Shown one piece after another: positions 1 through 61,211 of a stretch of 64,000 nucleotides of DNA. The notes beneath the pieces are model-generated. The model was not told where the DNA came from, did no database searches, and worked only from the letters and a program-made list of their open reading frames with translations. How positions within the stretch are numbered: position 1 is the stretch's first letter; the number at the start of each line of letters is the position of its first letter. The position numbers and the translations under genes are program-made. The DNA is from Urechis unicinctus (Eukaryota; Annelida; Polychaeta; Xenopneusta; Urechidae): contig CM067344.1 in the NCBI GenBank assembly GCA_034190875.2, positions 31,727,082-31,791,081 of the forward strand, given 5' to 3'.

Positions 1-369
1 AAGTGGTCATATATACAGTATATACAGTCATCTCGTGTATGAAAGCTATTAAATAAGATTGGTTTAGACAATCAATAAGAACTTTATAAAACAGGCATTT
101 ATATGATAAATGCTAGAGGGAGCCACTCATCTTCTCCATAAATGGGTATGTCAAACCAATGCCTAAAACGACACATCGACAGTCGTCAGGATTATGAAAC
201 TGTCAGTTAGTAATCCGCTTTATTTACATTTGGGAAATTGTACTCGGAAACAGTGATACTTCTCTTATAGGACGCAATTACGAGCAAATAGCGAAGCATC
301 TATTAGTGCAACTATTGTGAACATTATGGAATGCATCGAGACAATGTGATCATATTATTTGTTTTATAT

Positions 370-2690
370 TATGAAAACAGTGTTCATGGCTTACACTATT
401 AGCGAACGCATTCAAACATGCATAAATTGAGGTAGGATGACTACCTACCACGCGTTGATTGACCAAAACTCTATCATTCTGAACAATGTTTTTGGAAGAA
501 GCAAATCACCACCAAACTATACGGGCAAATCCACAGAAATGGATAACTACTGCAAAGTATATTTCGAATATCTGACAATAACGCTCGTTTTATGGATGAG
601 CGGTATTTTTTGGAGCCGTGGCTTCTTGAAAAGTATTTGTCTTCTAAAAACTTAACCAATATGATGAATATTTACGTCGCTTTTTTACAAAGAGACGAAA
701 TCATGACGGATGTAGGTGAGAGGAGCTGATATGCGCCGTGACTTGGAGTTTATACTTTGCATATCAAAATCCTTGCACAGTGATGCACACAGGATGCTGT
801 ATGTGTCGCCTTGTTCATATTGCCTACTCCCAATGCAGATTGCGTTTAATATGTGCCGGTAGATGTTTCACTTGCCTGGTTTTGTTCATCATTTCTTACC
901 ATTTTCAATTTTGTTTGTTACATATAAAGGAAATTTTGATATCCAATGTTCCTTTAAAATTATTGACAGCACATTATTGTTACGTATAACTGTGGCAATT
1001 ATCCTGTAGATACATCGATAATTTATGCAATCGCTGTACACGGAATCTGTTGTTATGCGCCCCAGGTACCCACGTCTTTAATTTTCTTCTAACCACTTTT
1101 CTTAACTACAATTCTTGCATGCGTGATTGCGTTCTAAAAATATGTTTTTCCTTCTTTTTCCAAAATTGCCCTTTTCAGATATTCTATTCGAAACTTTGAT
1201 TACATCCATCATCGACATGAATACGAATCTTTTTATCTTATTGTTCAGCTTAATAAAGAAGCCACAACCAGCGTTTTCGATGGCGTTGCATGGTTGTACA
1301 CAAGCAATGCCACCATAAACGAAATCAACTGGAGAGGATTCTAATATAACTGAAACAATATAACAAATGTTGATCAAGAAATCACGTTGTATCAAAGGGT
1401 GAATGTATCTCCCATTGTTAACAAGTATGTCACATGCTTGGGTGCATACTACGCATTTCAGAGATATTATGCCTCGCTGTGTATTATCATACTCCGCGTG
1501 GGTACGATGTGCGGTGTAGAGTGCGTTAAATGAATTAATTGTGAGTTCCCTTTGCCTCATTGCTTTCGGCTAAAACGCTATGACAACTTTACACTTCATG
1601 GCTTACGAGATAACTGATTTATTCAATGGCTTACGGGCAAAGTAACAGAACTGTAGCACGGTTGTCAAAAACGTGTGTACAAGACTTTTCTAGATAAGTG
1701 GGCGTCCTCGACAAGCTACTGTTTTTCCTACGGCGAGCAGATAATTCATAAATTATAGAAATATTTGTGCCACATTGTAAATGGACAACATTGCAATTGC
1801 ACAATACATTTATGTATGGAGCTAAAGCTTAAACTAGACACCTTGTTTTCCGTGTGAAATAATAAGGCCACAAACCAGGTGCCACAGGTTGTTATAAAAT
1901 ATCTTAACCAATCTCATGTGGATTCTGATGTCTTCATCAAATGCTGGAGCAGCATTAGGAATAAATGCTGGTTTAATTGGGCCTCGTTAAATCTACTCGG
2001 GGCAAACTAACTACAGCAGGGGTTTCACTGTATGACTGGGAGAGCCTATAAATCCTAATTAAGGTTTAATGGCCAATGCCATCAAGTAGTAATACTAAAG
2101 TCTAGCCCTGTTGGAATCAATACCTATCCTAAGATATAATGTTACTGAAGCAGCTATGATGTTCTTATATCATTTCCCTGTCGTGATATTTCCCTTGTCC
2201 GGATAGGTTATTATATCTTATCTGCTTAAGAATATCGGATGCTTCCTTGATATTCTAGCACACCATTGCGACACACATTATAAACCCATCAATAGAAAAC
2301 GATAATATACGCATGCTTCAACGTAACATATTTATCGGGGTACAGCATATATCAATAGAAGTCGCTACCCTAACCGTAGCTAGATCAGCAGCCGTGCTTG
2401 CAACCTTACTGGACATTTGGTGATTTGCACATCAAAGGAGCGAATATCGATAAATGAATGATGTGCCCTGAGGAATAATAGCAGCATTACATAGCAATAC
2501 ATAAAAGATAGTGGCATCAGTGGTCTTGCAACAGCATCCTTTAACCACAAGAAGTTCAATCTAGGTCTAAGTATGTATTTGACAATATGAAAGCATGTGT
2601 TAGCTGCTTTTCACAACGTGCGATATTCAGATGGGGTCACAATTAAATATTCGTGGTACTGTCTGAGTACCAAAATGCATCATTTACAAG
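370..2690. other. Copy-A-specific segment, no gene seen
   Basis: This 2.3-kb stretch is missing from copy B, which joins the equivalents of 370 and 2,690 directly at about 44,775. It is AT-rich with frequent stops in all frames. The longest frame, about 150 codons on the minus strand at 1,102-1,560, has no recognisable domain, no splice context and no second copy to test conservation. I see no SINE, LINE or terminal repeats in it. It is either an insertion into A or a deletion from B. Confidence 0.55.
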
Positions 2691-3847
2691 CACATCTTCG
2701 ATAAGAGTACAAATTTATAGAGTATACTAGGTTCTTAAGCGAAAATCAAAGAGACCGATTTAGTTGGATGATATTTCTAACGATGTTTTATTAAACTGTA
2801 TACTCGGTCTTCTATTCAGCATGTTCGTGCGTCGATTAGCTGCGGACATTTCATGCTGATTGTATTGTGGGTTTTTCGTTAATGAATGGATATATTGATG
2901 CTGTCTACTATACATGAATTCTTTATAATGGTAATATTGCATTGTGATAATCACCAACAGTGGCAAGCATAACATATTTGTGGTGGCTAATATTGATTGG
3001 GATAGGACGTATGTAGATCCTGTGCTCAGACATAAAACTGAAAATAACGCGCCAGTCATAAACAAATCGTTGATAAATACAGTATAATCCGCCTATAAGA
3101 CGTATACCAAAACGTACCTTGCAAGCTTATAACTCGTCTGTCACATGCAATCGAACACAGTTCGTGTCGGGGTTAGTGCTTCTATTTCCGATAAAACGAT
3201 TAACAAAATCCCTCGCAAGACATAAGAATTTAGATATATTGTAATATATTTTCAAGCTATAAAACAATAACTAAAAACATGATCCATATGTATATATAAG
3301 CGATAAATCCATGGATAATCGTTTTCTTGGACGAAGGTGGCATTAAAACGCTGCCCCTAGATGCCTAGCACGACAATGTTACGCTGATAGATTATGCTCT
3401 TATTGAAATATGGTGCGAGGGGTGTGCGATTTATGCACGGAATGCTGAAACTGCCGTCGGCAGAGCATTTAGATATAAACGTTTCCTAGTAGTTGTTAAT
3501 TAGCTCGCTTAGCATCCGGCAGATGATTGGATGATGCATTGCGCTCAACAAAGGTTCCCAGTTTTATGTGGCATATTTTGTGGTAAAACAATGATAGCAG
3601 TTGTAGATGTGTATTTATATTCATGTCCGTATGATGACCGCAATCTGAATGTTATGTCAGTGTAATATATCATGACGTCATATGTTCACAAATACTATTT
3701 AAAATGTGTGTTTCTTACTAAAAATGATAGGGATTCTTTCATCAACGCCTCTTAAACGGGTCATTTGCGATGCTTACAATGTCGACAATACAGTTTAAGG
3801 TACAATGTATAAATAGTCGGTTTTTAACTAAAATGATGTTACTCAAG

Positions 3848-3910
3848 CAGGCCCACTCGGATCGAACTGGTAATTGCATAGTCGATAGTGACTGCTTCCT
3901 CTAATCCAAA
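3848..3910 (-). repeat. tRNA-like SINE head (partial)
   Basis: Read on the minus strand, the segment has a tRNA-like layout. A box-A-like stretch (TTAGAGGAAGCAG) is followed about 35 bases later by a box-B sequence AGTTCGATCC (complement at 3,858-3,868), then a GAGTGGG arm. These are the internal RNA polymerase III promoter elements retained by tRNA-derived SINEs. It lies in a part of copy A (3,815-4,648) that is absent from B, consistent with an insertion. A functional tRNA is unlikely because the acceptor and anticodon arms do not pair convincingly. Confidence 0.45.
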
Positions 3911-59863: not shown

Positions 59864-60048
59864 TGCGAAATAAGTTTGAGAGTCACATCAACAGTTCACC
59901 AACCAATATCGCTGTATTATCGCCCAGGCGCGATTTAGTAGAGTTCAGTAGTCAGGGGCTCAAAGTTCTCCAGATTCGCCCAAATGTGCGTATAATGGTG
60001 CTGTAGCCAGTCTGTCTTGCTCCTACAGTTCGTTTAGGGTTCTTTTGT

Positions 60049-60175
60049 TTTATCCTCGTCGCCGATTGTGGTGTGTAAGTGCCACAAGACATGTGTGTAC
60101 GTTAGAGACGCCATTTACTGAACTGATGGAAAACCGAATATAACATGTGACGTGAACATGACATAGTAACCAAAC
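60049..60175 (-). other. Possible 5' LTR end and primer-binding region
   Basis: On the minus strand, ATCGGCGACGAGGATAAAA lies at about 60,068-60,050. This GGCGACGAGGAT type of sequence commonly sits just inside the 5' LTR of invertebrate gypsy elements, where the primer tRNA binds. Upstream of it (60,070 to about 60,173) a stretch beginning TGTTTGGTTAC and ending CACACCACA has the TG...CA ends of an LTR but is only about 100 bp long. With no second LTR to compare, this is tentative. Confidence 0.35.
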
Positions 60176-60179
60176 ACGA

Positions 60180-61211
60180 TATAGGCCAATACACTAAAAT
60201 TACTTACACCGATATTTTACAGCAACGTCTTTTGTAAGAGTGATGGCTTTTGTTCGAAGTATCAGTGTTGTTGTTCCCGGCATTTAGCAGTGCATCATTT
60301 AGTTTTATGTTATTAGGAGTAAGATACATTTTTTCCCATTAATTGCGCGCACCCTCTGGCAGATTCTTTAAAGGTGTACTGAGAATTTAGTCTTGACCAT
60401 TGTTTTTCACACAATCGGATAATATTATCTATATATAGGCTAATAAGTGGACCTTACGAGGATCGACTTAGATTCACTTCTTTATCAAAGGACATTATAC
60501 CGTACTTACAATTCTCTCATCGTTTACAGTCATTTAAGTTCTCGTTGTATGCAATACACAAGTGCTATGAAGAATATATGGAGACTTTGAACAATTGTTG
60601 GGTCTTGTGAAAATAGTTAATTGCATGACTGCCTATGTACCACGTCTTTCCTGAATTAAAGACCAACTTTTTCTATTTTAAAGTTGGAAAGATTACCCTA
60701 TTCACCCAAGCACATGTAATACAAGGCATTATTGTTAGCTTTTCGATAGAGTCTAAGTTATAATTTTTCTATGACAAATCGTTTTATTACAAAGCGGGGT
60801 GCAATATCGTAACTTGTGTTTCACTCCGCAAAATAGATAGAGCACAATATATATATATATATATATATATATATATATATATATATATATATATATATAT
60901 ATATATATATATATATATATATATATATATATATATATATATATATATATATATATATATATATCAACATTCTTCGTTAAAGTTTTAATTGTTTTTAGTT
61001 TTAAAATCAATCGTGCAGAATATGGGCTTCCAGATGAGGTTGCCATATCAACTTTAATAATACTAGTAGACAATCTGTGTTTTGACATTCTAACACAAAC
61101 ACACAGCCTATAGCTAGCTTTACCAGATTAAAGCGAGAACAATCGCCAATAGTAGAATAATGGAATATTCAAAGCTAATCGATATCATGGGGCGGGGACA
61201 CAGTATGGTCA
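60180..61211 (+). repeat. Third fragment of the large repeat, copy C
   Basis: 60,180-60,737 matches copy A at about 7,490-8,070, for example the shared stretches agtgatggctttt and cacacaatcgga. After a junction at about 60,738 it matches A at 9,210-9,620, including agtctaagttataattttt against aggctaagttataattttt. The 1.1 kb lying between these in A is absent, with a short cttt at both joins. A (TA)n array of about 117 bp sits at 60,847-60,964, where A has ordinary sequence. Homology ends near 61,211. The fragment lies directly upstream of the gypsy relic in plus-strand order and has no coding frame of its own. Confidence 0.8.
60847..60964. repeat. (TA)n microsatellite inside copy C
   Basis: Nearly 120 bp of pure TA interrupts the match to copy A at about 9,315-9,330, where A has ordinary sequence (gcaacagatataaaac). 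A short ATAT seed in the ancestor is a plausible origin. Confidence 0.97.

Follow-up and report, generated by a model that had tools for sequence, protein, structure and literature searches.

Four copies of a long non-coding stretch in the genome of Urechis unicinctus are probably the product of serial local segmental duplication and decay

RESULTS AND DISCUSSION

The window analyzed here, a stretch of 64,000 nucleotides from the echiuran annelid Urechis unicinctus (contig CM067344.1), holds four copies, A to D, of a long non-coding stretch, all on one strand within 61 kb and each collinear with A. The explanation that we consider probable is that neutral non-coding DNA underwent serial local segmental duplication and then decayed. 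Four features of the copies lead to it: they are same-strand neighbors of graded age, their right ends differ, two of the differences between them can be polarized as losses, and their divergence shows no coding constraint. Long TA arrays are also present in the window, and its G+C content is between 35.8 and 39.0% in 26 of 32 windows of two kilobases.

Three firm copies in collinear order

The initial annotation had claimed a large repeat family with at least three copies in 61 kb, sharing order and orientation. Both points were borne out when the window was compared with itself by BLAST after masking of tandem repeats, which recovered A, B, and C as collinear, same-strand blocks. Copy A (1-22,007, plus strand) is the longest and is matched by copy B (44,404-55,913, plus strand) in a chain of 12 collinear plus-strand blocks, each with 67 to 88% identity, and with an E value of 0.0 in 5 of the 12. 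Because the match reaches base 1 of the window, the left end of A is probably outside it. Global alignment of the blocks gave 1,300 differing columns out of 9,754 (576 transitions and 724 transversions, with 129 small gaps besides), corresponding to a K2P distance of 0.147 and a difference of 13.3%, which is to be read as a floor since the generous global scheme gives 73 to 76% for four unrelated control pairs. Identity between A and B was fairly even, ranging from 0.78 to 0.95 across full 150-column windows, with a variance 1.45 to 2.19 times the binomial value and therefore somewhat over-dispersed. As judged from the alignment, such evenness would be roughly that expected from one event.

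Copy C (60,199-61,209, plus strand) corresponds to A 7,511-8,076, 9,200-9,316, and 9,331-9,614, with BLAST identities of 74%, 82%, and 68%, respectively, and a K2P distance of 0.235 over the three pieces; it also matches B. The last two pieces are separated by a (TA)59 array, and A 8,077-9,199 has no match in C. A further segment at 56,177-56,573 (plus strand) may, tentatively, be the left remainder of the unit to which copy C belonged. It locally resembles 39,024-39,421 (plus strand) in the D region, with 67% identity over 349 columns and a score of 4,129 compared to a maximum of 3,549 in 40 shuffles, this pair having been selected from a screen of 20 pairs.

An older copy, D

Copy D had merely been suspected in the initial annotation and proved to be a real, older copy, as indicated by local alignment scores, collinearity, and short-word BLAST matches set against controls. 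Its left piece (34,442-35,565, plus strand) corresponds to A 925-2,060, and its right piece (41,074-41,903, plus strand) corresponds to A 6,824-7,580 (at 41,074-41,731) and A 8,265-8,393 (at 41,766-41,903). Local alignment under a scheme for distantly related sequences gave scores of 11,155, 8,263, and 3,939, respectively, compared to 3,566 for the best alignment of A with reversed D, and the identity to A was about 62 to 67%. The third score barely exceeds this single reversed control, and that piece was accepted for its position in the chain. Short-word BLAST of A against the middle of the window produced eight matches, four of which were the collinear D pieces, with E values from 7e-14 (the core of the left piece) to 0.011; the other four had E values of 0.029 to 0.078, and the best E value in nine control runs was 0.21. 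A distance for D from global alignment was dropped, the A-D value of 73% being inseparable from the 73 to 76% of the four unrelated pairs, and the kinship of D therefore rests on the local scores. Local alignment of B with D scored 5,003, a value with no control of its own, and fitted the A-D alignment at the right end only; further left, D was paired with another part of the unit.

No match to A 2,061-6,824 could be detected between the two pieces of D (35,565-41,073), so that either replacement or very heavy decay is needed there. No clear match to any copy was found in 22,008-28,760, nor any match to A 1-11,000 in 29,400-31,336, and a simple repeat period is consequently unsupported. On the opposite strand, 42,777-44,321 bears a faint resemblance to B (3,753 versus 2,679 for one reversed control, from the 20-pair screen).

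The similarity among the units is not high, with K2P distances of 0.147 (A-B) to 0.235 (A-C). In the stretch common to A, B, and C, the distances were 0.163 for A-B, 0.229 for B-C, and 0.243 for A-C. Since the A-B value is the lowest, A and B appear to be the closest copies, with C next. D is taken as the oldest because it is less alike, at about 62 to 67% identity in local alignment.

Losses from B and the junctions between blocks

The 11 gaps between the 12 A-B blocks contain 11,660 unmatched bases in A versus 1,393 in B, although within one of them A 13,863-13,942 and B 52,069-52,152 look related. D contributes here as an older copy by which two of the gaps can be polarized. The first, A 380-2,684 (plus strand), is absent from B, and D has its 925-2,060; the second, A 4,893-7,208 (plus strand), has no detectable counterpart in B, and D has its 6,824-7,208. 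At the second gap, B carries 1,011 other bases without a match to A or D. Given that D split first, the parts present in D would have been lost from B rather than inserted into A. The initial annotation had spoken of gains and losses on the kilobase scale; there are indeed many differences of that size, and both that could be polarized are losses. The gap at A 3,816-4,642 falls where D has no detectable match. We infer that deletion also produced most of the other A-B gaps, and much of the sequence kept by A has most likely been lost from B.

Short repeats of 3 to 6 bases were found at 8 of the 11 A-B junctions, no better than random, and so no particular deletion mechanism is supported. Direct repeats exceeded the 95% random level in only 1 of the 11 unmatched segments (9 in A and 2 in B), the B-only segment 52,067-52,310, with a value of 9.0 against 8.5 at the 95% level and 10.0 at the 99% level. 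Known elements inserted into A were rejected as the source of its extra segments, since terminal repeats exceeded the 95% random level in none of the nine. TA arrays were likewise rejected as break points, their distance to block ends being not unusual (P = 0.71). All eight arrays considered lie outside aligned blocks (P = 0.017), though they had been masked before the block search, and the array in C has blocks on either side.

Absence of coding constraint

The stretch had been called apparently non-coding, and this description held in every test applied. At an E value of 0.01, none of the 18 translations made in six frames from 1-44,400 (stops read as X), a region covering A, the middle, and D, matched a Pfam family. 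The translation method is able to detect a broken element, since all three minus-frame translations of 55.9-64 kb matched Pfam, one match falling short of the curated cut-off. No codon rhythm was found in the A-B substitutions, the highest chi-square in 159 windows being 7.0, whereas the maxima of 100 shuffles had a median of 8.9. The longest listed open reading frames include many that are TA repeats and several within the gypsy-like fragment described below. In A, 114 frames of at least 50 amino acids were considered, excluding those that were half or more I and Y; tblastn matched 50 of these to B or to the right part of the window and none to the middle or D. Stops interrupted 44 of the 74 matching pieces, and a single matched frame, 9,528-9,782 (minus strand), was covered over 90% without a stop. 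Its changes numbered 14, 14, and 15 at the three codon positions, and 28 of its 35 changed codons were non-synonymous; the other four of the five frames counted showed no third-position excess. A coding remnant was rejected on the basis of the stops in the matching pieces, the lack of third-position excess, and the lack of a Pfam family in 1-44,400. A search for tRNA and tmRNA genes (ARAGORN, bacterial code) found none.

Proposed history and its alternatives

As the copies suggest it, repeated local duplications, spread over a long period, would have copied a non-coding stretch of at least 22 kb in the same orientation, with the lineage of D splitting off first, that of C next, and A and B last. 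The copies would then have decayed, with no detectable constraint, through point substitution, small insertions and deletions, and kilobase-scale deletions. The copying itself appears to have been local and tandem-like, and unequal exchange or replication-based repair may have been the mechanism. The initial annotation had offered three readings, namely, a giant element, a decaying macrosatellite, and serial segmental duplication; the last fits best, and the element reading found no positive support here. If this history is the ordinary one, the locus preserves, on a small scale, a natural record of the decay of neutral duplicated DNA by large deletion, with ages graded at one place.

The broader alternative, which we regard as improbable, is that the window belongs to a very large (over 22 kb) non-coding repeat family with many genomic copies. 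The family would be either a giant non-autonomous element or a macrosatellite whose units are huge and diverge slowly. For the first form, four decayed copies of a non-autonomous mobile element would share one orientation by chance. Such an element would be expected to leave several copies of differing ages, as are seen here, but it is an unlikely source because all four copies lie on the same strand, no Pfam family was found in the 18 translations of 1-44,400, and the right ends of the matches to A differ (8,393 for D, 9,614 for C, and 22,007 for B, although deletion may have removed the true ends). In addition, none of the 11 unmatched segments has inverted terminal repeats exceeding the 95% random level, the ends of these segments not necessarily being those of the unit. 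Copies across the genome with common ends would make this an unusually large non-coding mobile element.

In the second form, which is equally unlikely, the copies would be what is left of a longer macrosatellite array that extends leftward beyond the window and has units tens of kilobases long. Such an array agrees with the presence on one strand of three firm copies plus an older one, and with an A-B match that extends to base 1. The offset to A, however, is not constant, being about 33.5 to 34.3 kb for D and, for B, going from 44.4 kb on its left side to 33.9 kb on its right; deletions also shift offsets and could explain part of this. There is also no sign of homogenization, the divergences being graded. 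Macrosatellites such as DXZ4 are large repeated units at one locus, and their copies are usually alike and fairly constant in length, whereas the copies described here are not alike.

Selection on a duplicated functional non-coding cluster, such as a long non-coding RNA or regulatory locus, might account for the better conservation of some stretches, e.g., A 19,061-19,210 at 0.95 identity, and for the mild over-dispersion of A-B identity. We consider it very unlikely, as no Rfam family matched the window at gathering scores; selection as coding sequence is opposed by the best block, in frame 19,010-19,315 (minus strand), where 15 of 17 changed codons are non-synonymous. False tandem copies are a recognized fault of assemblies, but the joining in tandem of alternative haplotypes or paralogous contigs is scarcely credible here, since the window contains no N in its 64,000 nucleotides and an A-B divergence of at least 13%, kilobase gaps, and the older D exceed the usual difference between alleles.

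Comparison with known systems

Local (tandem) segmental duplications in animals produce same-strand, collinear, neighboring copies of unequal age and content. Copies A to D are similar in being long, collinear, near one another, and on the same strand; they differ in being old and in containing no protein family in A, the middle, or D. The literature on comparable systems yielded loose analogues only. One is the sea urchin Sp185/333 cluster, described as gene-bearing segmental duplications of 4.5 kb with microsatellites at both edges (PMC3091723). On that description, both systems are clusters of duplicated segments in an invertebrate and have microsatellites in their vicinity, but the eight TA arrays in the present window do not lie closer to block ends than expected by chance (P = 0.71), and the analogy would be a loose one.

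Neighboring elements

A broken gypsy-like retroelement fragment (about 56,950-60,000, minus strand) lies between B and C and shows similarity to reverse transcriptase and RNase H; its similarity to protease is weak and does not reach the curated cut-off. Its observed/expected CpG ratio is 0.61, compared to 0.90 in A and B. Together with the TA arrays among the copies, this fragment is probably a later addition. A search of viral contigs for a relative of the fragment gave nine stretches that fit the pattern, none of which was confirmed. To its right, a THAP-domain frame was noted at 61,654-61,953, within a region (61,300-64,000) that is also low in CpG (0.58).

Several short repeats were observed elsewhere in the window. 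A tandem repeat of 295 bases in 2.1 copies, about 98% identical, is located at 26,175-26,804, and a TA-rich array flanked by identical 89-base segments is located at 32,003-32,352. Directly left of copy B, at 44,190-44,379, there is a short direct repeat with about 80% identity over 82 columns. At 62,185-62,963, a pair of head-to-tail copies of about 390 bases is 99.7% identical, suggesting a very recent tandem duplication.
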